Origin: a virus | Length of the DNA: 30,043 bases | Virus record (IMG/VR): IMGVR_UViG_3300025870_001462 | Coordinates: 1-30,043 of that record | Reading direction: 5' to 3' (one strand) | Shown here: piece after piece, positions 4,728 to 21,689 of the stretch | Numbering within the stretch: the first letter of the stretch is position 1 | Layout of the letters: every line of letters starts with the position of its first letter | Position numbers and translations under genes: made by a program | Notes under the pieces: model-generated | The model's input: only the letters and a program-made list of their open reading frames with translations | Databases searched by the model: none | What the model was told of the DNA's origin: nothing

Positions 4728-5053
4728 ACTTAGAACAATTTTTTGAAGAAGAAAAACATACAACCCTAGATCAAAAATGGGGAACGGATAAAGAAAAGCA
4801 AACACGCTTGAGAATTAAGCTAACCATAGCAGCTTATGCCTATGAGATTATGAACCATAGTATCATGTCTGATGCTGATTTTGATAAAAAATGTTTAGAG
4901 GTAGATCTATCTATAGACACCGGCAACACAGAACTTGATAGTTTTTTTAGAAAAGAGTTTGACCCTTCCACCGGTCAGTGGATACATAATCATCCTGAAA
5001 AAAGAAAAATTGGTTATTTGCTAGACAAATATTATAACGTGCAAAATAATTAA
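4724..5053 (+). CDS. Phage-conserved hypothetical protein
   Basis: Protein of 109 residues, ATGA-coupled to the methyltransferase gene. Characteristic segments are YAYEIMNHSIMSDADFDKK, then FFRKEFDPSTGQWIHNHPE. I recall this combination from marine T4-like phages as an unannotated protein. The SDADFD part resembles the start of the N-terminal domain of NAD-dependent DNA ligases, but nothing else of that enzyme is present. Its stop meets the convergent gene at 5050 with no terminator between. Confidence 0.7.
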   Translation: MNLEQFFEEEKHTTLDQKWGTDKEKQTRLRIKLTIAAYAYEIMNHSIMSDADFDKKCLEVDLSIDTGNTELDSFFRKEFDPSTGQWIHNHPEKRKIGYLLDKYYNVQNN

Positions 5054-5307
5054 GTTGAGTCTCTTTTACGGAATATTTTTTCGTATTCCTCAGCATTATA
5101 ACACCCACCCCTAAACAATGTTCCGTCAGGTGTACCAAACGCAAATTCATATTTGTCGTTTACAATTGGTTTTTTGGCAATGTAATTAACGAAGAGAGCG
5201 CACTCATCATGGTTTTGAAAAGTGCGTTCGCTTATATCAGGACCATAGATCTTTGTCGGATCCATGATGTTCATAGTAAACCAAATTAGGACAACGAGAT
5301 CTGCCAA
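5050..5307 (-). CDS. Small membrane-anchored or secreted protein
   Basis: Protein of 85 residues starting with TTG directly after the stop of the upstream gene; ATG codons at residues 12 and 15 are alternatives. The N-terminus (ADLVVLIWFTMNI) is a hydrophobic segment. The rest has two Cys (HDECALF and RGGCYNAEEY) that could form a disulfide outside the cytoplasm. It resembles the protein at 6973-7161 in layout: hydrophobic start, then an aromatic/Cys domain. Last gene of the minus-strand block. Confidence 0.6.
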   Translation of the reverse strand: MADLVVLIWFTMNIMDPTKIYGPDISERTFQNHDECALFVNYIAKKPIVNDKYEFAFGTPDGTLFRGGCYNAEEYEKIFRKRDST

Positions 5308-5466
5308 TTACTCAGACTTCCAAATAGTCCAAGCACCCCAAGCTATTGCAATACCTGCGGCAATTTTAGCCAATGGTGCCATGAACAATACGAGCATTCC
5401 TAAGCCTACTAGGCCTACGCCATCCCATGTTGTTCTTTCTTTTAATCTGTTTTTAATCCAATTCAT
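5308..5466 (-). CDS. 52-residue one- or two-helix membrane protein
   Basis: Begins MNWIKNRLKERTTWDGVG, continues with a hydrophobic stretch (VGLGMLVLFMAPLAKIAAG) and ends GAWTIWKSE. AAAGGAGAA lies 5 nt before the ATG. A short basic amphipathic start followed by hydrophobic helices is common for small phage membrane proteins, including holins, but size alone does not prove a holin. It lies between two other membrane or surface-type genes of the minus-strand block. Confidence 0.7.
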   Translation of the reverse strand: MNWIKNRLKERTTWDGVGLVGLGMLVLFMAPLAKIAAGIAIAWGAWTIWKSE

Positions 5467-5477
5467 TGTATTCTCCT

Positions 5478-5804
5478 TTAAAATTTATATTCATATCCAA
5501 TCACAAATCCCGGATCATCACCGAGAGGTACTGGTGACATAAAGTAATCATCATACGTTACTCTAAAGTAGGGAGAAATAGAAGTTTTGTCAGACCACTT
5601 ATAGCCTGTTACTGCTCCAACTTCTACTCCAAATAAGTCATATTCTTGTCTGTAGCCACCGTATGCACTCATTTTATCCATACTATTATAATAAGCGCCG
5701 GCTATAAAATGTTCTTGCTGTACCCTTACATGGGGATGAACCGCGTTATAATCTGCTTCCATCCCTACATGCAAACTTAAAGCTACACTAAAAATCCATT
5801 CCAT
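5478..5804 (-). CDS. Beta-barrel-like phage protein
   Basis: Protein of 108 residues. Alternating aromatic and polar residues (HFIAGAYYNSMDKMSAYGGY, VGAVTGYKW, SPYFRVTYDDYF) and a C-terminal FVIGYEYKF with terminal Phe suggest antiparallel strands of a small outer-membrane barrel. A short hydrophobic start (MEWIFSVALSLHVG) could serve as an export signal but is short. I recall similar unannotated proteins in marine T4-like phages. Function unknown. Confidence 0.65.
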   Translation of the reverse strand: MEWIFSVALSLHVGMEADYNAVHPHVRVQQEHFIAGAYYNSMDKMSAYGGYRQEYDLFGVEVGAVTGYKWSDKTSISPYFRVTYDDYFMSPVPLGDDPGFVIGYEYKF

Positions 5805-5972
5805 TTAAAACCTATCCAGGTAAGAACTAGTTTCAGCATAAGCATAGTTATCTGACTGAGTAGCTCTTAGTTTCCAATATTCATTTCGTTCGTTTGTTGA
5901 TGTGCGATTCTCTTCATGCCTCTTATGAATTTCAATGTATTCTTTTAAAGTTATTGAAGAGTTGCTAATCAT
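5805..5972 (-). CDS. 55-residue hypothetical protein
   Basis: Runs from the ATG ending at 5972 to a TAA abutting the next start. Begins MISNSSITLKEYIEIHKRHE and ends YAETSSYLDRF. Hydrophilic, probably helical, no domain recognised. It overlaps the upstream gene by 4 nt (ATGA) and exactly fills the space between two confident genes, which is the main support for it. Confidence 0.65.
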   Translation of the reverse strand: MISNSSITLKEYIEIHKRHEENRTSTNERNEYWKLRATQSDNYAYAETSSYLDRF

Positions 5973-6271
5973 TTTTTACCACCTAACGTTTTTGGACTTT
6001 TTGCTTCTAAATCATTAAGGCGTCTTTCCATATCGTCAATTTTCTTTGTTACTTTTGGATATCGTTTACGCCAAGCTTCGGGATCGTCTTGTAACCATTC
6101 CCAACCAAAACGATCTACTAGATGATCTAATAGACCATCAAATTTACCCATTAAATATAAAGCAGCTTTTGTATTTCTAAACCATGCAAGAAAAGCAGCA
6201 CCTAAAACTGAGCCGCCAATTGCTGTATAAATCCATAGCGTATCACCAAACATTCTTGTGAGCATTTCCAT
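5969..6271 (-). CDS. Small membrane protein with a C-terminal coiled coil
   Basis: Protein of 100 residues. One membrane helix near residues 13-31 (YTAIGGSVLGAAFLAWF), then a soluble part with DRFGWEWLQDDPEAWRKRYP and a short heptad-like helix (VTKKIDDMERRLNDLEAKS). The Lys-rich end is cytoplasmic or periplasmic depending on topology. It lies 1 nt after the lipase gene. Position next to a lipase and other membrane genes suggests an envelope role, perhaps in lysis. Confidence 0.7.
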   Translation of the reverse strand: MEMLTRMFGDTLWIYTAIGGSVLGAAFLAWFRNTKAALYLMGKFDGLLDHLVDRFGWEWLQDDPEAWRKRYPKVTKKIDDMERRLNDLEAKSPKTLGGKK

Positions 6272-6272
6272 T

Positions 6273-6980
6273 TTATTTTCCTCTTAAATGTTTTACGTAA
6301 TTAGCCATACCATGATCCAAAGCACCGTCTAGCAACCCTGAACGATATCCCCGCCATTTATCTTTAATAGCTTGCCATGTAGTAAGCTTACGAATATTTC
6401 CGTAAAAGTTGATGTATTGTAATACACCGTGATGTTTATAACCCATTATCCATAGTGGTACTTTAGTAACTATATCGTTATTATTTACAAAACGCATATG
6501 AGGTGTTGAAATATGTTTAACGAATTTACGTGTGCCAACCCTTGGTGATCCAAATGTTGTTAACTGTTCTACTTTGGTTTCTTCTTCAAATCGAGAACAA
6601 GCTATAGTAGCCATAGCGGCTCCAAGCGAATGTCCTGTTATATACAGTTTTCTTTTAGAATGACTGCGCTGATGCTTAGCAACACTTTCCCATAACTTAT
6701 CAAGCTCTCCTCTAAATCCAGAGTGTACTAAACCATGCGTCATAGCACCGCGGGGAATAGCATTTAAATCAGCTAATAAGTCTGAAAGTTCGTCTGGTTC
6801 TGTACCACGAAATGCTAAAACGTATTCTTCTTTATTCCAAAATGCATGACATTGAGCACCGTCAACATCCCAAAACTTATGGCCTGTAATACCATAATCT
6901 TTATTTTTAGCTTTGGCCTCTTTACTATCAAGGTATGCCATCTCGGCCATTATAGCCATTTTAAGATTTAAATTAATCAT
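6273..6980 (-). CDS. Class 3 lipase (alpha/beta hydrolase)
   Basis: Protein of 235 residues. The strand-elbow motif YITGHSLGAA places the nucleophile Ser118. VLAFRGTEP supplies the oxyanion region. FGSPRVGTR follows, and NNNDIVTKVP carries the catalytic Asp (about 169), with His in YKHHG as third triad member. This is the pattern of the Lipase_3 family, which hydrolyses acylglycerols or phospholipids. No signal peptide is seen, so it would act from the cytoplasm or leave through a holin lesion. Inferred role: degrading host membrane lipids during lysis. It overlaps the upstream gene by 8 nt. Confidence 0.9.
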   Translation of the reverse strand: MINLNLKMAIMAEMAYLDSKEAKAKNKDYGITGHKFWDVDGAQCHAFWNKEEYVLAFRGTEPDELSDLLADLNAIPRGAMTHGLVHSGFRGELDKLWESVAKHQRSHSKRKLYITGHSLGAAMATIACSRFEEETKVEQLTTFGSPRVGTRKFVKHISTPHMRFVNNNDIVTKVPLWIMGYKHHGVLQYINFYGNIRKLTTWQAIKDKWRGYRSGLLDGALDHGMANYVKHLRGK

Positions 6981-7161
6981 CGTTCCCCTCCATGTTAATA
7001 CAAATGGCTTGTTGGCCGGCTTTAAAATAGCCCATGCCTTTTCCTACTTCTTTACTTAATACTTGTCTTGCCTTAAAACAATCCATCATATTTGGAAAAC
7101 TATTTACAGCTTCAACGTACGGAACGCCTGAATAAAAATATATAAAAGTTAGTACCCACAT
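6973..7161 (-). CDS. 62-residue protein with an N-terminal membrane/signal segment
   Basis: Starts MWVLTFIYFYSGVPYVEA, a likely signal or anchor, followed by a short domain with two Cys (MMDCFKARQ and QQAICINMEG) that could be disulfide-linked. Its start overlaps the stop of the upstream gene by 1 nt, and its end overlaps the lipase start. It is similar in plan to the gene at 5050-5307. Function unknown. Confidence 0.65.
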   Translation of the reverse strand: MWVLTFIYFYSGVPYVEAVNSFPNMMDCFKARQVLSKEVGKGMGYFKAGQQAICINMEGNDD

Positions 7162-7463
7162 TATTTTCCCTTACTCAATGTTTTTAATTTGTCTTTTAAC
7201 GAAGATGAAGTGGTTTTTGACGATACTCTGGATTTCGTGTCTTCCCATCGTATGTCAACACCGGACAATACCTTATGATCTTGTGGTTGTCTTTCGTTCG
7301 TGGTTGGGGTATCCACCTTATGACGTTCTCTTGCTCTGGCGAGTCGCCTTGCGGTTTCGTTTTGCTTTTGAACCCAGTACCTTTCAATCATATTCTCCTT
7401 AAACCTTTGATCTACTAATTCATCTATATAGTTTTTAAAAAGTAGTTCAAACCAGTACTTCAT
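7161..7463 (-). CDS. Basic hypothetical protein
   Basis: Protein of 100 residues, strongly basic, with an N-terminal helix (MKYWFELLFKNYIDELVDQ), an Arg-rich helix (NETARRLARARERH) and a Ser/Thr/Lys-rich tail ending LSKGK. No membrane segment. It might bind nucleic acid or membrane surface, but no family is recognised. Its start overlaps the stop of the 48-residue gene upstream by 4 nt. Confidence 0.62.
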   Translation of the reverse strand: MKYWFELLFKNYIDELVDQRFKENMIERYWVQKQNETARRLARARERHKVDTPTTNERQPQDHKVLSGVDIRWEDTKSRVSSKTTSSSLKDKLKTLSKGK

Positions 7464-7606
7464 TTTTGATCCTGTTTGTATTTATTAGGGTTTAAAGTCT
7501 TATCTACGTGAGGCCCTACGTTTTCCCAGTATTCTTTACTTGACGGTACAATAATATACCAGGCCGATACAAAAACTAAAAATGTTATGATATATGCAAT
7601 TTTCAA
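7460..7606 (-). CDS. 48-residue single-helix membrane protein
   Basis: Starts with TTG overlapping the upstream stop (TTGA). Sequence opens MKIAYIITFLVFVSAWYIIV, a clear membrane helix or uncleaved signal, then KEYWENVGPHVDKTLNP and a Lys/Gln-rich tail. It bridges the gap between two neighbours with overlaps at both ends, which supports it being translated. A spanin-like or regulatory membrane peptide is possible; no family recognised. Confidence 0.68.
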   Translation of the reverse strand: MKIAYIITFLVFVSAWYIIVPSSKEYWENVGPHVDKTLNPNKYKQDQK

Positions 7607-8016
7607 CGCACAAGATCCCTATTATCCCAAGGTGCGTTTTCAAAACAACCTGCTGGTAATTTATCTTTGTACCACACTTGAGCTTTTACACCATTAGGTC
7701 CTACTTCTAATGAAGATTTCTCAAAAGGCATTTCTCGTGGTTTACCAAAACATCTATTTAAACTTTGACCTGGAACACGATACCTTGGATTGTGCTTTAA
7801 GAAATCTTTGAGTTCCGCTGTTTTTGCTTGGTTAATTCTATTTCTTGCCTTAGCAGCGCACCGGGCAACGTTGTTAAAATTATAAGTATCAAATAAGTCT
7901 GGCGAATAATTGTATTTGCTTAAGCAACTTTTCAATTCGTCATTATATCCTGTCTCTGCACGCGATACGCTTGGAGTAAGGATTATCATACCTATTATTA
8001 CAAAAACTTTTTTCAT
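7603..8016 (-). CDS. Secreted hypothetical protein with four Cys
   Basis: Protein of 137 residues with a signal peptide (MKKVFVIIGMIILTPSVSRA, cleavage before ETG). The mature part has Cys in KSCLSKY, ARCAAKA, NRCFGKP and AGCFENAP, enough for two disulfides in the periplasm. No domain is recognised. It overlaps the Cys-rich gene upstream by 1 nt (TAATG). Confidence 0.7.
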   Translation of the reverse strand: MKKVFVIIGMIILTPSVSRAETGYNDELKSCLSKYNYSPDLFDTYNFNNVARCAAKARNRINQAKTAELKDFLKHNPRYRVPGQSLNRCFGKPREMPFEKSSLEVGPNGVKAQVWYKDKLPAGCFENAPWDNRDLVR

Positions 8017-8126
8017 TACTCACAGTCACACTTCGTGCACACGTCGTTTATACACTCACTACAATCAGGTCTATAACAATGACAACCATGTCCACATTTT
8101 GTGCACGTTCTTTTTGGTTCAATCAT
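8016..8126 (-). CDS. 36-residue Cys-rich, metal-binding-like protein
   Basis: Ten of 36 residues are Cys, arranged as CTKCGHGCHCY then CSEC and CTKCDCE. The spacing (CxxC pairs plus a CxC) resembles metallothionein or a pair of zinc knuckles. GGAGGG lies 5 nt before the ATG, a strong ribosome binding site. The next gene starts within its stop codon. Likely binds zinc or another soft metal; no signal peptide. Too short to assign to a family by eye. Confidence 0.72.
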   Translation of the reverse strand: MIEPKRTCTKCGHGCHCYRPDCSECINDVCTKCDCE

Positions 8127-8136
8127 AACACCCTCC

Positions 8137-8778
8137 TTAGTTTGCTAATGGATTATCTAATGCTCTTTGAAGCTTATCGTTCAAAGCAGATTCTAAATCT
8201 CTCATTTCGCGAAGCATTTTTTCTTCTAAGTCAGTCATACGTTGACCACTTGACTCTCGCAAATCAGATGCTTTTGTGTCATATTGGTTTTGTAGTGCAT
8301 CCCTTTTATTATCGAATCGTTCTTCAGCGTTTTGAATGATTTGTCTTATGTCTGCTTCAGTGTCTCGTACAAGCTTCTCAACTCGACGTGTCTGATCTTC
8401 AAGGTAACCGATTTGTGAGTTTGTGTCTACTTTATTTTCACGGTTACGTGTTGCTGCGTCGTCTAATTGTTTTTGAAGTGCAACAAGTTGAATACTAATT
8501 TCCTTATTAACGTTTGTTAATGAGGCTTCTATTTGTTGGTTGCGTGTTTCTATCACGTCAACATCGATATTCTGGACAATTTCTTTCATGCCCATGTAAT
8601 CATCATATACTTGGAAAGCGCCATATAAACCACCGAGTATCGAACTGATTAATGCAAATAGCATACCAATTGTTGTCGGCGTCATGGTAATACCAAAGAG
8701 TTTCATCTTGGTATTTTTTAAATTTTCTACTTCCTGCTCAAAGTTCTCGATTCCTTCACCAAGATCTTTATCGGCCAT
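8137..8778 (-). CDS. Membrane-anchored coiled-coil protein
   Basis: Protein of 213 residues. One membrane helix at about residues 34-56 (TTIGMLFALISSILGGLYGAF) is followed by a long charged helical region to the C-terminus with heptad character (NKEISIQLVALQKQLDDAA, RVEKLVRDTEADIRQI, MTDLEEKMLREMRDLE). This plan, one anchor plus a rod, fits a periplasm-spanning scaffold; an inner-membrane spanin is one possibility, though the rod is longer than usual. GGAGGGAT precedes the start. Similar unannotated proteins occur in marine T4-like phages as far as I recall. Confidence 0.72.
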   Translation of the reverse strand: MADKDLGEGIENFEQEVENLKNTKMKLFGITMTPTTIGMLFALISSILGGLYGAFQVYDDYMGMKEIVQNIDVDVIETRNQQIEASLTNVNKEISIQLVALQKQLDDAATRNRENKVDTNSQIGYLEDQTRRVEKLVRDTEADIRQIIQNAEERFDNKRDALQNQYDTKASDLRESSGQRMTDLEEKMLREMRDLESALNDKLQRALDNPLAN

Positions 8779-8787
8779 GTATCCCTC

Positions 8788-9207
8788 CTAGTTTTCAAAC
8801 TGCTGGCCACCGGATTCATTTAAACGCTTAAGAGCTTCGAGTTCTTGCTGTAATTTCAAAACCTCTAATCTCTTTTTTCTCAATTCCAATTCATACAAAG
8901 AGTTACAGTTAATTCTTTCTTTTGGTTTATCGAGTGGTATAACTATTCTTGCATACACACCGACATCTTTTGCTGAGTCCATCCCGTTACCGCTATCAAA
9001 TGGACTATTGTAATTATCAATAATACCGGTCAAGCCGAACTCAAGTTGTGTTGCGCCGCCGATCGAGTTTTTACAATCTAAATCGCCAGCTCTAATGCTG
9101 TCTTGTCCAAACGAGTTTGAAGCGCCAGGCAGAGCCAAACCAATTTGACTGTTATCCGCCTGTGCTATTGTTGGTAGCAGCATTAGTAGTATAATATATT
9201 TTCTCAT
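8788..9207 (-). CDS. Secreted protein with a C-terminal coiled coil
   Basis: Protein of 139 residues with a signal peptide (MRKYIILLMLLPTIAQA). The middle is beta-rich (TQLEFGLTGIIDNY, DVGVYARIVIPLDKP) with Cys in DLDCKNS and INCNS. It ends in a charged helix (LYELELRKKRLEVLKLQQE) that could pair with the rod of the adjacent coiled-coil protein. Its start overlaps the upstream stop by 4 nt. Confidence 0.7.
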   Translation of the reverse strand: MRKYIILLMLLPTIAQADNSQIGLALPGASNSFGQDSIRAGDLDCKNSIGGATQLEFGLTGIIDNYNSPFDSGNGMDSAKDVGVYARIVIPLDKPKERINCNSLYELELRKKRLEVLKLQQELEALKRLNESGGQQFEN

Positions 9208-9599
9208 TCACCCAACCTTTTCACTCTAGAGCAAATCTTCGAAGACACGGCTGTCCGCGTCCTTGATGATTGTCTTAATTTAGATACTGAGCAAATATAA
9301 GTAACATCATATCTATCCTCAGATCTTATATAAATGTCAAAAGACACTGTGCTTAAGTACGGTACTTTATAGACTTTATAATTGGAAACAAACTTAATAG
9401 GTTCCCAGTCTTGTGTAAAAACACCAATTTCGTAATACTCAACCTCAGGTCTTTTATTAAACATTGTCATAGTTGTTCTATATAAACCATCCACATAAGC
9501 CGGTTCTAACTTTGGATACGTAGGAACCATCTCATGCGAATAAGCTGCAGAAGATATTATTAACGCCATGGTGGCAATAATGTATTTCATTTTAATCAT
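9204..9599 (-). CDS. Secreted Ig-like protein, possible chaperone-like fold
   Basis: Protein of 131 residues with a signal peptide (MKYIIATMALIISSAAYS). A second ATG three codons in is also possible. The mature part is rich in beta strands (EYYEIGVFTQDWEPIKFV, VSFDIYIRSEDRYDVTYICS) and ends SSKICSRVKR. The strand order and the position next to a fimbria-like subunit suggest an Ig-like or PapD-chaperone-like domain, but the resemblance is weak. The ribosome binding site AAGGTG lies 10-11 nt upstream. Confidence 0.66.
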   Translation of the reverse strand: MIKMKYIIATMALIISSAAYSHEMVPTYPKLEPAYVDGLYRTTMTMFNKRPEVEYYEIGVFTQDWEPIKFVSNYKVYKVPYLSTVSFDIYIRSEDRYDVTYICSVSKLRQSSRTRTAVSSKICSRVKRLGE

Positions 9600-9626
9600 A
9601 ATTTTTATTCACCTTCAATTTAGGCC

Positions 9627-9710
9627 TTATGGTCCTGGTCCTGGAGAGTAGAACATTCCACCTCCACCTCCGTAATTTATTCCGGAACTAGAACTACTGC
9701 CTCCGCCATT
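9627..9710 (-). other. In-frame Gly/Ser-rich extension beyond a UGA stop
   Basis: Directly after the UGA (9711-9713) of the fimbria-like gene, the same frame stays open for 27 codons to a TAA at 9627-9629. It reads NGGGSSSSSGINY, then GGGGGMFYSPGPGP. There is no start codon before the internal ATG at codon 19. The composition is protein-like. UGA is followed by A (AAA-UGA-AAU), a context often leaky in bacteria. It could be a readthrough domain or the remnant of a longer gene. Confidence 0.5.
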
Positions 9711-10220
9711 TCATTTAGCTATACAAGCCGCCTCGACTAATGCAGTATAATTACCACCAGGGAATGCTTTTGAGCCACCCATAGTCGCGGTTGAAGTAGT
9801 TTCAAACCATGTTGAACCTGTAGCTGTAAGGTTGTAACGATCTGTATAACCAGTTTCTAATTTTCCTGTTTCATATCCACTCATAGTTGTTGAGTCAGAC
9901 ATAGTTTTTACTGTCGTGTCGCCAACCCATGTTACCACATCAGATAAACCTGGTGAAGATGAAAACTCACTTGGCGCTGTAATATCTACATAATATGCAG
10001 CGGCTAAAGTTACATCAACACGAATTACTGGAGGTGAACCACCATCAGAATTTGCAGTTGACAGCGTATAAGCATTAGGGTTACCATAAATACCTGGCTG
10101 ATCTGTTTGAATAATACAGCGACTTTGTACTGTACCATTAATTGGTGTATCTTGGGCATAACCCGCGGTGGCGCTTAAAACTAAAAGCGCAGCTACGGTA
10201 CCCGTCTTTAAATTAAACAT
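9711..10220 (-). CDS. Secreted fimbria-like subunit
   Basis: Protein of 169 residues with a signal peptide ending ATAGYAQ. The mature part starts DTPINGTVQSRCIIQTD and ends KAFPGGNYTALVEAACIAK, with two Cys near the two ends. This resembles type 1 pilin and spore-coat-U-like domains, where a Cys pair links the first strand to the end and the C-terminal strand reads like YTALVE. I recall similar proteins in marine T4-like phages without a known role. A Gly/Ser-rich frame continues past its stop. It sits in a run of four signal-peptide genes (9204-11635). Confidence 0.68.
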   Translation of the reverse strand: MFNLKTGTVAALLVLSATAGYAQDTPINGTVQSRCIIQTDQPGIYGNPNAYTLSTANSDGGSPPVIRVDVTLAAAYYVDITAPSEFSSSPGLSDVVTWVGDTTVKTMSDSTTMSGYETGKLETGYTDRYNLTATGSTWFETTSTATMGGSKAFPGGNYTALVEAACIAK

Positions 10221-10230
10221 TTACGTCTCC

Positions 10231-11133
10231 TTAGTTTGTGTTTAAATTATATTGCATTTCAACCATTTGCTTGTGAAGCAATTGTTGAGCTAAACCATTA
10301 CGTAAACCATTTTTGCCATCAGGTAAATCTGCGTCAGGCAAATTAATCGCATCATCATATACTCCACCGGGAATTCCTGCAACAACATAAGTCTGAAGTT
10401 TTTGTACAGATGTCATGTTTATTGCATTGATTCTCGCATTTTCTGCTGAAAGAGAAGCTGCGTCTGCAATACTTAAGGCTTTTTCTAATCTATATTTTCT
10501 TTTAGCCTCTTCTTCTTCCTCTTCCTTTTTGCGTTCGTTTTCTTCTAAATTTATATCATCCTGTTCAACGGTTTTGTTTCTTTCTAGGTCTACGTTTTCG
10601 TCGTCAAAAACATCATATAAATCGTCTAAATTAACTTCCACAATGTTTGGCACTGGTACAACATAATTAGGACAATTAGGATCGAACTGTGGATCATAAC
10701 ACGGGGTAACTTTATATGTGTAAACTACCTGAGCATTATATACTGACCCGTTGCCCTCTACTTCAATACTTCCAGGGCCCCAAAGTTCCCTTGGTAAGTC
10801 GCCAACAGGAACAACTTTGTTAATTCCCATTCCTGTTACTGTTCCTGGTTTCCATTCATCAGTTTCTCTGAAGATATAACCAGTTCCGTTGGCATTTTTA
10901 TTTTGTACGTGAACGGTTACCCACTCACCAGATTCTTTTTGTATAGTATAGGAATATATCACGTTTTGAATATCTAAGCCAGGAGGCTCAGGCAAAACAT
11001 TACCCATAGACCAATTTAATGATTGATCAGTTATAGCGTTTCCTGTCGTACCCCAATATGGAGCAAGACTCTCAGAGTAAGAGTAGGAAGGCCAGGAGGC
11101 CAGCGCCAATAGCAGGAGCAGCTTTTTCCGCAT
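10231..11133 (-). CDS. Secreted protein with beta domain and acidic coiled coil
   Basis: Protein of 300 residues. The signal peptide is MRKKLLLLLALASWPSYSYS. Residues to about 165 are beta-rich (VIYSYTIQKESGEWVTVHVQ, VVYTYKVTPCYDPQFDPNC). Then comes a very acidic linker (DDLYDVFDDENVDLERN) and a highly charged helix (ENERKKEEEEEEAKRKYRLE) followed by an Ala/Asn-rich helix. The first 62 nt overlap the 3' end of the upstream gene in another frame, so the signal peptide is dual-coded. The combination suggests an extracytoplasmic structural protein; no family name can be given. Confidence 0.7.
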   Translation of the reverse strand: MRKKLLLLLALASWPSYSYSESLAPYWGTTGNAITDQSLNWSMGNVLPEPPGLDIQNVIYSYTIQKESGEWVTVHVQNKNANGTGYIFRETDEWKPGTVTGMGINKVVPVGDLPRELWGPGSIEVEGNGSVYNAQVVYTYKVTPCYDPQFDPNCPNYVVPVPNIVEVNLDDLYDVFDDENVDLERNKTVEQDDINLEENERKKEEEEEEAKRKYRLEKALSIADAASLSAENARINAINMTSVQKLQTYVVAGIPGGVYDDAINLPDADLPDGKNGLRNGLAQQLLHKQMVEMQYNLNTN

Positions 11134-11635
11134 CTATAGGTCCCATAAGTTTGAGTTCTTTTTCTGTTTCTTCTACGTGAGTTTCCCAACCCAATTTGGC
11201 CGCATCACCAATTAATCCATTGTACGGACATGGTGTACCTGCGTTCATCATGGCATCAAAGACATTTTTGTCTTGGCACATAGTAGAAACCGCGGCGACC
11301 TTCATACCCATATCATATAATACTTTTGCGTTCTTAAGTCTTTGGCAATTCTCTTCAGTGAATGTACCACCACCAGAAATACCAAGAATTTGTGTTTGTA
11401 CCGCGGCTGACACACCTATTGTACATAGATCGTTATTAGTGCCTGCGGAAAACTGTGGTGATATAGCTGTTGGCGGGGGCTGTTTAATAGTTGTTGTCAT
11501 ATTACCATCTGTTGTAATATTACTATCAGTGCCTGATATTGTGCACACGTACCCTTCTGGGCATTCTACTGATTCTTGCCCTTGCGCGGCAGTAACTAAA
11601 AACATTGCCGCAAATGCAATTAACAGTACTCTCAT
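11072..11635 (-). CDS. Secreted protein with a C-terminal membrane anchor
   Basis: Protein of 187 residues, first gene of the minus-strand block. The signal peptide is MRVLLIAFAAMFLVTAAQG. The mature part has VECPEGYVCTISG, PPPTAISPQFSAG, DLCTIGVSAAVQTQ and LYDMGMKVAAVSTMCQDKNV, with six Cys in all, and ends in a hydrophobic tail (APAIGAGLLAFLLLL). I recall this block pattern from unannotated proteins of marine T4-like phages. GGGAGGAG precedes the ATG, and a late promoter lies about 40 nt upstream. Confidence 0.75.
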   Translation of the reverse strand: MRVLLIAFAAMFLVTAAQGQESVECPEGYVCTISGTDSNITTDGNMTTTIKQPPPTAISPQFSAGTNNDLCTIGVSAAVQTQILGISGGGTFTEENCQRLKNAKVLYDMGMKVAAVSTMCQDKNVFDAMMNAGTPCPYNGLIGDAAKLGWETHVEETEKELKLMGPIDAEKAAPAIGAGLLAFLLLL

Positions 11636-13875: not shown

Positions 13876-13949
13876 TAGGGTGTAGTATAATGGTAGTACA
13901 ACGGATTCCAAACCCGTTGGCGTGGGTTCGATTCCTACCACCCTAGCCA
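13876..13949 (+). tRNA. tRNA-Trp(CCA), one mismatch in the anticodon stem
   Basis: Acceptor TAGGGTG/CACCCTA is perfect, with discriminator G as in tRNA-Trp and encoded CCA. The D stem is GTAT/GTAC and the T arm GTGGG-TTCGATT-CCTAC. The anticodon loop is TTCCAAA (anticodon CCA) on stem ACGGA/CCCGT, with an A-C mismatch next to the loop. A Gly(TCC) reading would require a worse stem. It starts 2 nt after the long 13751-13873 helix. Confidence 0.8.
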
Positions 13950-17446: not shown

Positions 17447-18148
17447 ATGCCTTATATAGATAATGATTTGACCGCGATGGTAGACCTTTCAACCTATTGC
17501 AATGCGTCATGCCCGCAGTGTCACCGAACAGACCAAGAAGATATTTCTAAAAAGAACTATTGGCTCCCTTTAGTTCAATGGTCGTTTGAAACCTTCAAAC
17601 AAAGATTTCCAAAACAATCTCTTTACAGATACAGGCAAATCATTTGCTGTGGTACATGGGGTGATCCTATGATGAATAAAGATATTATGAAAATCATAAA
17701 ATATATTTTATCAAGCAATAACAAAACATTAGTAATTGTTAACACCAACGCAAGTCTAAGAGATGAAGATTGGTGGTGGGAACTTGGTATGATAAGTTAC
17801 AAATATCATCATAGGCTTGAGGTCATATTTGATATTGATGGAGTTACACAAGAGCAGCATGCTAAATATAGAGTAGGAACAGAACTGGATAAAGTGCTAA
17901 CACATATGAGAGCCTTTACTGAGTCTGGATCAATTGCTAAATGCTTTACTATCGTGTTTGAACACAACCAAGATGACGTTGAAAAAATAGGTGAATTAGC
18001 TAAAGCAAATGGAGCAAGTGCTATGTACATCCAACCTTCAAATAGATTTGATAAAAACCCAGAGCAATTTAGATATATCCAAGAAGGAAAAATAAGACAC
18101 TTAAAACCACCCACAAAATATACTGAATTTAAGGCTATAGGATTATGA
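17447..18148 (+). CDS. Radical SAM protein, core of split pair 1
   Basis: Protein of 233 residues. STYCNASCPQCHRTD carries the CxxxCxxC that binds the 4Fe-4S cluster and SAM (Cys18, 22, 25). ICCGTWGDPMMN is the Gly-rich SAM-binding strand, and VIVNTNAS and LEVIFDIDGVTQEQHAKYR are the following barrel strands, with the R.GT pattern of SPASM-type enzymes. No C-terminal auxiliary-cluster domain is present; the next gene supplies one. Related enzymes modify peptides, proteins or sugars. First gene of the modification cluster; it overlaps the next gene by 4 nt. Confidence 0.88.
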   Translation: MPYIDNDLTAMVDLSTYCNASCPQCHRTDQEDISKKNYWLPLVQWSFETFKQRFPKQSLYRYRQIICCGTWGDPMMNKDIMKIIKYILSSNNKTLVIVNTNASLRDEDWWWELGMISYKYHHRLEVIFDIDGVTQEQHAKYRVGTELDKVLTHMRAFTESGSIAKCFTIVFEHNQDDVEKIGELAKANGASAMYIQPSNRFDKNPEQFRYIQEGKIRHLKPPTKYTEFKAIGL

Positions 18149-18531
18149 AAAAAATACGTTGTTCTTTCTTTGAAAAAAATGAATTAAATATAAATCCAGA
18201 CGGTCAGGTATATCCATGCTGCTTTTTTGCTAATACTCTTTTCATAGCAAAACAATTTGGGTATCCAAAGCAAGGTGATATAGATCTTAGAGAAGAAGAC
18301 AGCACCCATATACAAAACGGATTACAAAACTCTGAGTCTATAGCAGTCGGAGTAATAGACAACAATCCAATATATAAAGAGTATGTTGAAAACGAAGCTG
18401 ATTATAATTTAGATAATAAAAGCATTAGTGAAATAATAAACTCTGAATGGTATCTTAAACTTGAAGAGTCTCGTAAAACTTGGGATACCGCTCCTCAAGT
18501 ATGTAAAAATTGGTGCACTGTTAATGACTAA
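18145..18531 (+). CDS. Stand-alone SPASM-like Fe-S domain, partner of pair 1
   Basis: Protein of 128 residues. It starts KKIRCSFFEKNELNINPDGQ, then VYPCCF, and ends APQVCKNWC (Cys6, 25, 26, 120, 124). NINPDGxVxPCC and a late CxxxC are the hallmarks of the SPASM/twitch auxiliary cluster domain that normally forms the C-terminus of radical SAM enzymes. Here it is a separate protein coupled to the upstream core (ATGA). ISEIINSEWYLKLEESR matches the I...W......R spacer of SPASM domains. It probably assembles with the core into one enzyme. Confidence 0.8.
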   Translation: MKKIRCSFFEKNELNINPDGQVYPCCFFANTLFIAKQFGYPKQGDIDLREEDSTHIQNGLQNSESIAVGVIDNNPIYKEYVENEADYNLDNKSISEIINSEWYLKLEESRKTWDTAPQVCKNWCTVND

Positions 18532-19222
18532 AATTGTTGATTTCTATAATCGTTCATATGACAAAAGCGACTTCAAACATCATAGAAGGCCTGGTAATAG
18601 AAATATCAATATGGATATAACTAATAGGTGTACTCTAGAATGCGTAACATGCGAAAGACAATATCGTATTCGGTTAAAGGGAAAGGTTGTGGGAGAAGTT
18701 TTATCAGTGTCTGATTTTGAAAAATACATACCGTGGTTCGACCACTTTGATTTTTGTGGACAAGTTTCAGATCCTAGCATGCATCCTGAGTTTGATAAGA
18801 TTTTAGAGCTTGTAGCAAAAAACGATAAGAGCGCTGATGTTCATAACACTGCTTCTCAAAGACCGGAAAGATGGTATAGAAAAATGTTTGATATATCATC
18901 AGGTACTAGAATAGCGTGGCGGTTTGGAATAGATGGATTACCAAAAGATTCTCATATATATCGGACAAGGCAAGACGGTCAAAAGTTATTTGATATGATG
19001 TCTATTGCTGCAGAATATAATCCCAAATTTAGAATTTATTGGAAATATATTATTTTTAATTACAATCAACATGATATAGAAGAATGTAAACAAATGGCTA
19101 AAGACATGGGAGTAATATTTAATACTGTTAACTCAAGAAGACATCCACCAGGTTTGAGACCAGATGAAGAATTGACTTCAAAACTTGCTATGGATAATAC
19201 ATATTTTTATCCAAATGACTGA
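18524..19222 (+). CDS. Radical SAM protein, core of split pair 2
   Basis: Protein of 232 residues from ATG 18524, which overlaps the previous stop by 8 nt. DITNRCTLECVTCERQ holds CxxxCxxC (Cys36, 40, 43). FDFCGQVSDPSMHPEF is the Gly-rich strand, and WRFGIDGLPKDSHIYRTRQ is the later barrel strand with the SPASM-like Y/HRTR pattern. It resembles the upstream core in length and lack of a C-terminal auxiliary domain, so the two look like diverged paralogues. The substrate is unknown. Confidence 0.86.
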   Translation: MTKIVDFYNRSYDKSDFKHHRRPGNRNINMDITNRCTLECVTCERQYRIRLKGKVVGEVLSVSDFEKYIPWFDHFDFCGQVSDPSMHPEFDKILELVAKNDKSADVHNTASQRPERWYRKMFDISSGTRIAWRFGIDGLPKDSHIYRTRQDGQKLFDMMSIAAEYNPKFRIYWKYIIFNYNQHDIEECKQMAKDMGVIFNTVNSRRHPPGLRPDEELTSKLAMDNTYFYPND

Positions 19223-19556
19223 AAAATTTGATCCAATATGTATGACTAAAAGTGAAGGTATGGCTCATACCTGCTCAGGACATTTGATTCCGTGTTGCCA
19301 TCTTGATTACATTGCCAATAGCGATCCCGCATATAGAGAACTACTTAAAGACAAATTAAAACTATCAAACAATGATAGTGTGGAAGATATATTAACTTCT
19401 GACGAATGGTTAAATTTTGGGCGAGCCGTTTTTAAAGGATTAAATGAAGGAATAGAATATGCTCCTACCTCTTGTCAAAGAAAATGTGGTCCAAAAGATG
19501 GTTGGGATCCTAATAATACATCTAAGCTAAACGAGTATCCTAAAGGTTGGAAATGA
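19215..19556 (+). CDS. Stand-alone SPASM-like Fe-S domain, partner of pair 2
   Basis: Protein of 113 residues from ATG 19215, overlapping the core gene by 8 nt. Cys9, Cys20 and the pair Cys27-Cys28 (HLIPCCHLD), then SCQRKCG, parallel the partner of pair 1. SVEDILTSDEWLNFGRAVF also matches the INSEWYLKLEESR region of that gene. This supports descent of both pairs from one duplicated pair. It likely supplies auxiliary 4Fe-4S ligands to the upstream core. Confidence 0.78.
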   Translation: MTEKFDPICMTKSEGMAHTCSGHLIPCCHLDYIANSDPAYRELLKDKLKLSNNDSVEDILTSDEWLNFGRAVFKGLNEGIEYAPTSCQRKCGPKDGWDPNNTSKLNEYPKGWK

Positions 19557-20653
19557 AACATTATTGCGCAGCACCTTTTACCCATATATCTATTGACCCA
19601 CGAGGCGTGCTGCTTCCATGCTGTAGATATAAAAAACCTTTATCAAACTTAGATGAAGAAAGAATAGACGAAGGTTGGAATAATCAAAACTTTCAGGATT
19701 TAAGAAATCAATTTTTAAATGGTGAAAAGCCCGAGGCTTGTTCTGATTGTTGGCATGCCGAGGAGTCTGGTAACCAAAGTTTACGAAGTGTTATTAATGG
19801 CTGGGCTCGTAATAAAAAGTTTGATTCGCCAATAGTAGAAGACGGTCCTGTTTATTATGAATTTAAAACGACTAATGTGTGTAATCTTAAATGCCGTATG
19901 TGTGGTTCTTTTAATTCAAGTCAAATAGCAAAAGAAACAGAGTCAGTAGAAACTCGCAAACATTATTTAAAGCATAAATTAATAGGTACACACCATGAGC
20001 CTATCATATATGAATGGCTTAAAAAAGCTGATTACATTCTCTTTGCAGGTGGTGAACCATTTGTAAACGAAGAAATCAAAAAGGTTATGACTTATATTGA
20101 TGAGCAAAACCTAAATGCAATAAGAACATTAATGGTAACAAACGGAACTTATTGGAATGAAAAATTTGTACGCCAATTAAAATCATTACTTGATTTAGAT
20201 ATAAGAATTAGCTTAGATGATATATACGAAAGAAATAATTATCAAAGGGAAGGTTCTGACTTTGATGTAATTGAACAAAACTTTATTAAGTTTTCAAAAA
20301 ACTTCTATGGAAAGGTGACGTTTAACTGTACTTTGAATTGGTATAATATATATCATATAGATGAATTTTTAGAATATGCTGACGACTTTAATACACCCGT
20401 GTCAATACAGTATGTAGAAAACCCGTCATATTTAAACATTAGTAATTTACCTATAGCTGTAAAAGAGGTTATATGTAATAAGTTTAAAGATACAAAGGAC
20501 GAAAGAATTAAAAAGATTATAAGACGAATGATGATTGATGGCGAAGATCAATTAGATAAGTTTTGGAAACACATAAAATATTATGATAAACTGCGAGGCA
20601 ACGATTTTAAAGTTGCTTTCCCAGAGTGGAGCAAGGTTCTTGAAAGCGTGTAA
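19553..20653 (+). CDS. Radical SAM protein with N-terminal twitch-like domain 1
   Basis: Protein of 366 residues from ATG 19553 (ATGA overlap). The Fe-S auxiliary motif comes first: C5AAPFTHISIDPRG, then PCC (23-24) and CSDCWHAEE (63, 66). The radical SAM core follows, with TTNVCNLKCRMCGS (Cys110, 114, 117), LFAGGEPF and MVTNGT. This inverted order, auxiliary cluster before core, matches proteins annotated as twitch domain-containing radical SAM. Conserved acidic residues in RISLDDIYERNNYQR follow the usual barrel strand. Target unknown. Confidence 0.87.
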   Translation: MKHYCAAPFTHISIDPRGVLLPCCRYKKPLSNLDEERIDEGWNNQNFQDLRNQFLNGEKPEACSDCWHAEESGNQSLRSVINGWARNKKFDSPIVEDGPVYYEFKTTNVCNLKCRMCGSFNSSQIAKETESVETRKHYLKHKLIGTHHEPIIYEWLKKADYILFAGGEPFVNEEIKKVMTYIDEQNLNAIRTLMVTNGTYWNEKFVRQLKSLLDLDIRISLDDIYERNNYQREGSDFDVIEQNFIKFSKNFYGKVTFNCTLNWYNIYHIDEFLEYADDFNTPVSIQYVENPSYLNISNLPIAVKEVICNKFKDTKDERIKKIIRRMMIDGEDQLDKFWKHIKYYDKLRGNDFKVAFPEWSKVLESV

Positions 20654-21689
20654 CGCACCATTTAATAACATGTACATCACACTTCAAGGTAGGGTTTCTC
20701 CTTGTTGGAAGCTGCCTGGTTTTTGTGAAACCTGGAGCAAAGATAAAACTTTAATGGATATATGGCAAGGTGATGTATTCCAAAAATATAGAGATGCGTT
20801 AAGTCAAAATGTATTTTTAGACCGATGCATGGAATGTAAAAGAGATATTGATAACGATGTCTGGCCGTTGGCAAAAGCTTATGAAAAGTTTCCAGTAAAT
20901 ACCATGCCATCTCTTATGGAAATAGAGTTAAGTAACCAATGTAATCTTGAATGTATTATGTGCAATGGTAATTTAAGTTCTGGTATTAGAAAGAACAGAG
21001 ATAATCTTCCACCATTACCGCAGATATTTGATGATTCGTTTTTAGAACAAATGCGAGAGTTTATTCCACACCTTACTGAATTAAGAGTAAATGGTGGCGA
21101 ACCTTTTGCTCAAAAAATATTATTAGATTTACTTGACGTTGTAGCTGAAATTAAACCAGAACTTAAAATCAATATTGCAACTAATGGTACTGTTTATAAT
21201 AAAAGAGTTCAAGGAATACTTGATAAATGTAATATCCATTTAAACATTAGTATTGATAGTTTAATTCCAGAACGATATGAAGAAATAAGAGTAAATGGTA
21301 ACTTTGATACACTAATGAAATATTTTGATATATTTAAAGATTATTGCCATACAAACAAACGAATCTTATCTATCATGGTTAACCCTATGAATATGAACTG
21401 GGATGAAATGATAGAGTTCGTAAGGTTTACTGATAAACATCAATGTGAACTTTGGTACAATACTATATTATATCCAACCCATGTTACACTTAAACATTTA
21501 CCTGGCGCAGAACTTGCCGCGATTATTGACGACATGAAAAAAGAGCTAAATACAATTATAGGTTTTAGAAACTATGACAAAGCAAAACATCTAATAAGCC
21601 AATTAGAAAATTGGTGCTTAGATTCTTTAGATGGAACTCAAATTGATTTATATACTGATGGAGGGAGTTTGATTAATGCAACCCGATAA
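20640..21689 (+). CDS. Radical SAM protein with N-terminal twitch-like domain 2
   Basis: Protein of 349 residues if started at TTG 20640, which has GGAGCAAGG just upstream and keeps the Cys at residue 4; an ATG at 20583 in the same frame would overlap the previous gene by 71 nt. CNAPFNNMYITLQGRVSPCW and CMECKRD (63, 66) form the twitch-like motif. SNQCNLECIMCNG (Cys101, 105, 108), RVNGGEPF and IATNGT form the radical SAM core, and NISIDSL follows. It is paralogous in plan to the gene before it. Overlaps the next gene by 14 nt. Confidence 0.86.
   Translation: MKACNAPFNNMYITLQGRVSPCWKLPGFCETWSKDKTLMDIWQGDVFQKYRDALSQNVFLDRCMECKRDIDNDVWPLAKAYEKFPVNTMPSLMEIELSNQCNLECIMCNGNLSSGIRKNRDNLPPLPQIFDDSFLEQMREFIPHLTELRVNGGEPFAQKILLDLLDVVAEIKPELKINIATNGTVYNKRVQGILDKCNIHLNISIDSLIPERYEEIRVNGNFDTLMKYFDIFKDYCHTNKRILSIMVNPMNMNWDEMIEFVRFTDKHQCELWYNTILYPTHVTLKHLPGAELAAIIDDMKKELNTIIGFRNYDKAKHLISQLENWCLDSLDGTQIDLYTDGGSLINATR

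Follow-up and report, generated by a model that had tools for sequence, protein, structure and literature searches.

The DNA analysed here (the window), 30,043 nucleotides in length, makes up the whole of a linear 30 kb virus record from IMG/VR. Its minus strand carries a cluster of genes for predicted secreted proteins, in which the order pSec187-p300-FIM-CHAP-p139 is retained in nearly all loci examined (Table 1). Attention was drawn to this locus by the end of FIM, whose open reading frame, with its UGA included, occupies 10220..9711 on the minus strand according to the ORF list and the translation of the window. An earlier reading, made from the letters of this DNA only (the sequence-only reading), had claimed that the frame stays open for 27 codons past the UGA and encodes a Gly/Ser tail there. 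Translation confirmed this from 9710 to 9630, where UAA follows, so that the originally proposed range 9627-9713 is composed of the UGA, the tail and the tail stop. It was also right that the tail has no plausible start of its own: no start codon was found near its beginning in the window, and the single ATG in its interior would give MFYSPGPGP at most. However, 19% of base-shuffled tails of the same composition also remain open, and with chance openness of this order the window alone proves nothing, leaving the case to be carried by its relatives.

Table 1. Features of the window, tails of related FIM genes and tmRNA genes found on contigs of relatives.
Feature	Position	Strand	Remarks
pSec187, predicted secreted, hydrophobic C-terminus	11072..11635	-	relatives in Pelagibacter and Roseobacter phages
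p300, predicted secreted	10231..11133	-	conserved operon member, upstream of FIM
FIM, secreted pilin-like subunit, 169 aa	9714..10220	-	signal peptide; C-terminal end ...ACIAK
FIM stop UGA, proposed readthrough site	9711..9713	-	followed by A (UGA-A-A-U-G-G)
In-frame tail of 27 codons, NGGGSSSSSGINYGGGGGMFYSPGPGP	9630..9710	-	start NGGGSSS homologous to L002, L003 and L024
Tail stop UAA	9627..9629	-	CHAP ATG 27 nt further
CHAP, secreted, probable single-domain PapD-like chaperone, 131 aa	9204..9599	-	always adjoins FIM
p139, predicted secreted	8788..9207	-	last conserved operon gene
Conserved secreted-protein operon	5050-11635	-	followed in many relatives by p213, a lipase/esterase and a small membrane-like protein
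Region of mosaic similarity	9767-9540	-	L002 nearest on both tail flanks, L001 for the rest of FIM
Phage tRNA-Trp(CCA)	13876-13949	+	U11-A24 in the D-stem, by inspection
Radical-SAM-like gene run with companions	17447-21689	+	CxxxCxxC motifs; by eye, from the ORF list
Tail of L002, NGGGSSSGGSSPTCRRLGGCP			after UGA-A; first IMG/VR scan
Tail of L003, NGGGSSSGSSSSGASCRRWPGCP			after UGA-A; first IMG/VR scan
Tail of L010, KGGSSGTPSSPSPTCRRLGGCP			after UGA-A; first IMG/VR scan
Tail of L024, NGGGSSSGGSSSGGSSPTCRRYPSCP			after UGA-A; first IMG/VR scan
Tail of L056, NGGSSIGQSAPATNPDPTCRRFGGCP			after UGA-A; first IMG/VR scan
Tail of L059, NGGSSSSSSSGATCRMWPGCP			after UGA-A; pattern scan
Tail of L061, NGGSSSSSSSGASCRRWPGCP			after UGA-A; pattern scan
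tmRNA gene	L001:1860-2231		tag ANNNFAPSGLALAA
tmRNA gene	L024:481-862		tag ANDNFAPSEFALAA
tmRNA gene	L026:5723-6047		tag ANDNFAPQELAQAA

The alignment of the FIM family (n=32) has a mean column identity of 64% with Cys35 and Cys166 invariant, and the end of FIM coincides in it with the end of untailed relatives. A Pfam search was of no use for this protein, and PHROGs returned only families of uncharacterised function. Its AlphaFold2 model is a beta sandwich (pLDDT 85), and the best Foldseek matches of this model include the CFA/I (CfaB) and type 1 (FimF) pilins, although weakly (E 3e-3 to 7e-3), with Gram-positive adhesin domains scoring like pilins and Z staying below 8. Mature CHAP matches the N-terminal domain of FimC, DraB, CfaA and Caf1M with Z of about 10, at which MSP domains tie; the match begins at residue 1 of mature FimC, and the second chaperone domain is absent. 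A search for the outer-membrane usher (PF00577) returned nothing in 15 phage records of up to 328 kb, which may be incomplete, and it is possible that the usher is supplied by the host. The locus resembles chaperone-usher pili (CFA/I, type 1, Caf1) in having an Ig-like secreted subunit, judged by a weak fold match, beside a probable PapD-like chaperone domain, but differs from them in the one-domain chaperone, in the lack of an usher in these 15 records and in the lack of a family match at the sequence level. Since the second chaperone domain is missing and the usher was not found, membership in this class is not claimed. The models of FIM and CHAP fit a subunit with its chaperone, and the term “fimbria-like” used for FIM in the sequence-only reading seems reasonable in view of the weak pilin likeness and the chaperone-domain match next door.

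The initial scan of IMG/VR gave 58 FIM relatives. Most of them end in UAA or UAG and pass directly into the next gene, while some carry UGA-A with a Gly/Ser tail in frame behind it. The carriers represent a family of uncultured marine phages that are T4-like at least in part, some relatives encoding T4-type gp23. Among isolated phages no FIM relative was found at E 1e-5, Vibrio phages matching weakly at E of 0.5 or more. A bacterial origin of FIM was considered and rejected, as the five matching genome contigs all came from metagenome bins and are probably binned phage DNA. Contigs L118, L119 and L121 of one such bin (Rhodobacteraceae bacterium Water_Bin34) carry this phage operon, two of them with the tail, and are probably phage contigs binned with a bacterium.

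In 11 further IMG/VR contigs altogether the FIM gene stops at the same codon and continues in frame into a Gly/Ser tail, and all distinct tailed forms (8/8, the window counted in) have UGA-A. The end motif C-R-R/M-x-x-G/S-C-P is conserved in every tail except that of the window, which ends in PGPGP where the others end in CRRxxGCP. Scanning with the pattern CIA[K/Q] followed by UGA retrieved 13 contigs, 11 of them tailed (L043/L157 and L237 are tail-less). When any codon was admitted at the stop position before [K/N]GG, the same 11 contigs were found in IMG/VR with UGA in 11/11, and neither UAA, UAG nor a sense codon was registered by these pattern scans at the stop position of tailed genes, though the scans may leave out records very close to the window, hence its own population. 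Among the matches listed there are at least 126 distinct family ends, partial copies of single genes included, of which 90 are UAA, 23 UAG and 13 UGA, and none has UGG at the FIM stop position. Counted over distinct proteins, UGA terminates 7/7 tailed versus 1/74 untailed genes (Fisher P 2e-9, kinship ignored). The tailed relatives are 65–70% identical to the window protein and about half of fourfold sites differ in most tailed lineages, which argues that the common UGA does not result from recent whole-gene copying. Scans with the motif and the linker matched this gene only, plus one out-of-frame chance match, giving no sign of the tail as a module elsewhere, and no second FIM copy bearing the tail was found in 12 records, each having one copy. 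The sequence-only reading had named homologues devoid of a tail as evidence against its proposal. Many such homologues do exist, but nearly all of them end in UAA or UAG, while the tailed ones all have UGA-A. It had also advised a comparison of homologues for a conserved or a fused tail; the conserved one was found in the 11 contigs, and no fused (sense-codon) version was found in IMG/VR.

Evolution of the tails was considered at the codon level. Pairwise comparison of the CRRxxGCP tails over their nine terminal codons gave 18/43/95 differences at codon positions 1/2/3. The tails of L002 and L010 differ there at 5 sites with 0 amino-acid changes (P 0.0007 versus random placement), and the other two frames of the tail show no constraint in this pair, individual pairs of tails being significant in part only. 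The tails are 21, 22, 23, 26 or 27 codons long, with length differences in whole codons only, and each is closed by a stop. In tailed relatives the distance to the next gene is 20–39 nt from the tail stop and 89–120 nt from the UGA, while the FIM stop of untailed relatives (n=63) lies 0–23 nt from it. The codon constraint covers the tails of the relatives; that of the window is alignable with them over NGGGSSS only, with the last 20 codons outside. These data suggest that the tail of the family evolves as a protein-coding sequence in the FIM frame. The family as a whole thereby displays what is expected of functional readthrough, namely a coding-conserved extension past a stop that occupies the same place in diverged relatives, and a leaky UGA-A context that is kept in tailed forms, while untailed ones have mostly UAA or UAG.

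A tree of 81 FIM proteins requires six tail changes, and on the best tree UGA switches together with the tail in 6/6 independent pairs; well-supported branches underlie 3/6 of these pairs, and the sign test thus falls short of significance. In the CHAP tree all tailed members fall within one well-supported set of 22, with about five tail changes. Taken as a whole, FIM of the window is closest to untailed L001, while L002 matches the window at 90% identity over the last 60 nt of FIM and at 88% over the first 57 nt of CHAP, as compared to roughly 55–80% elsewhere. This mosaic at the 3′ end of FIM is a sign of recombination, and the tail seems to travel with its UGA as an end module by homologous recombination. 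Because of such joint exchange the tailed cases are not fully independent. Their independence is weakened by this, but conversion of UGA to UAA takes a single transition and was seen in none of the tailed lineages despite the divergence of their tails.

The same mobility may be read in another way, with the UGA and the stretch behind it being an untranslated spreading cassette, such as a spacer, a recombination tract or the leader of the next gene, and the open frame being incidental. Movement of the tail with its flanking DNA, its frequent gain and loss, and near identity of several lineages in DNA over the first tail codons are all in line with this idea. Yet the third-position excess and the lack of amino-acid change are confined to frame 0, length differences are all in whole codons, a stop ends each tail and no common RNA fold is present, and we consider the cassette rather unlikely.

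As to the decoding of the stop, UGA is the ordinary terminator of about 14 other window genes, which marks the genetic code as standard. The next-base A had been called leaky in the sequence-only reading, and indeed UGA-A is the context most frequently misread by tRNA-Trp in E. coli (PMC5289835). Efficiency of UGA readthrough differs strongly among bacteria, reaching 12% in E. coli but staying below 0.1% in Pseudomonas (PMC9481147), and the rate in the present phages would depend on their host. No stimulating RNA structure was detected: 7 tailed sequences have no common fold (z-scores from −1.6 to +0.9), the same 7 sequences have no stable common stem-loop (SECIS) after the UGA as required for selenocysteine insertion, and Rfam elements gave no match in the window at E 5. 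These negative results fit a simple leaky stop.

A dedicated recoding of the UGA, whether by selenocysteine, a phage suppressor tRNA, a general code change or stop hopping, appears quite improbable against this background. It could be favored by the tRNA-Trp(CCA) gene of the window and by the one known case of ribosomal bypassing in T4-like phages. However, neither a conserved stem-loop nor an Rfam element accompanies the UGA, which also ends those other genes, and matching take-off and landing codons needed for hopping are not there (AAA, CAA or AAG before the stop, AAU or AAG after it). The phage tRNA as a dedicated suppressor was rejected: among 20 related records, which are incomplete, its matches came only from untailed L023 (100%) and L001 (79%), and with no match in the tested tailed records host tRNA-Trp would generally have to suffice. 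The U11-A24 pair seen in the D-stem of this tRNA is the state that makes the Hirsh tRNA-Trp of E. coli a UGA suppressor, but since untailed L023 has an identical tRNA, it is not linked to the tail.

Two further alternatives can practically be set aside. A small independent gene read in the +1 frame (ATG GCG ...) and overlapping the tail would account for its conservation and is open over the tails of L003, L024, L056, L059 and L061, but stops interrupt this frame in the window as well as in L002 and L010, such a start is absent from L010, and substitutions alter its amino acids at or above about the chance rate. A recent nonsense mutation, which was the alternative of the sequence-only reading, or a sequencing error at 9711-9713, which it had named as fatal to its proposal, is conceivable in principle for a single contig with a gene normally fused to the tail, but the identical stop is found in 11 other contigs from different metagenomes and is common to relatives of 65–70% identity, IMG/VR yielded no version with a sense codon, and the end of FIM matches that of untailed relatives.

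Thus, functional readthrough of the UGA, giving a minor tailed form of the secreted pilin-like subunit as a small share of the protein, is in our opinion the likely explanation, and comparative evidence in this way supports what the sequence-only reading had proposed for the leaky UGA-A. The occurrence of readthrough, its rate and the inserted amino acid are all inferred. Most ribosomes would terminate at the UGA and release the 169-residue subunit, while a minority would decode it as an amino acid, most likely tryptophan delivered by tRNA-Trp with the help of the next A, and would append the Gly/Ser-rich tail of 27 residues. More speculatively, the tailed form may enter an extracellular assembly as a minor subunit, the neighboring CHAP serving this assembly, with the Gly/Ser part acting as a flexible linker and the end (CRRxxGCP mostly, PGPGP here) as the working part. 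PapD-like chaperones grip the subunit they serve by its C-terminal carboxylate, and if this is valid here, the tailed FIM might be handled differently by its chaperone, in the way conceivable for a rare subunit at a tip, base or cap, which is a speculation. It may even be, though we would not give this an even chance, that T4-like marine phages use readthrough to hold tailed subunits at a fixed low proportion relative to untailed ones within a surface appendage, as a natural display system of a DNA phage, with the tail and the UGA traded as an interchangeable end module.

One of the closest known parallels is that of phage Q-beta, to which the sequence-only reading had correctly referred: rare readthrough of the coat UGA, about 1 in 15 and with Trp inserted, gives there the minor extended subunit A1 (PMC8067240). 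In both cases the gene of a surface subunit is closed by a leaky UGA with A as the next base. Unlike the present phages, Q-beta has an ssRNA genome, its protein and extension have no sequence relation to FIM and its tail, and the A1 extension folds into a domain of almost 200 residues, while the tails described here are Gly/Ser stretches of 21–27 residues on a protein that is secreted and pilin-like and for which readthrough is proposed. Among plant RNA viruses, poleroviruses and enamoviruses likewise use programmed readthrough to make a minor coat protein with an extended C-terminus (PMC9553062), but they do so on eukaryotic ribosomes, with a long extension and with downstream RNA signals of a kind not found here. 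Clusters of secreted, surface-directed proteins are also encoded by other marine phages, since pelagiphages have curli-like (type VIII secretion) ones (PMC7029224, PMC9599517, PMC9004378). Their proteins appear to be different ones, and the word readthrough does not occur in the two of these papers that were searched for it.

Q-beta and its RNA-phage relatives are the textbook example of readthrough in phages, and a review calls the device unique to phages of that type (PMC8067240). The literature searched, the coverage of which was partial, yielded no account of a dsDNA phage with functional readthrough, and this is weak evidence of absence. Such tails escape gene callers, which end a gene at its UGA. 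Comparative support in dsDNA phages would extend functional readthrough to a very abundant group of viruses. For the gene itself, readthrough would provide a protein-level reason to keep its UGA, and it would point to a surface structure built in two forms during infection.
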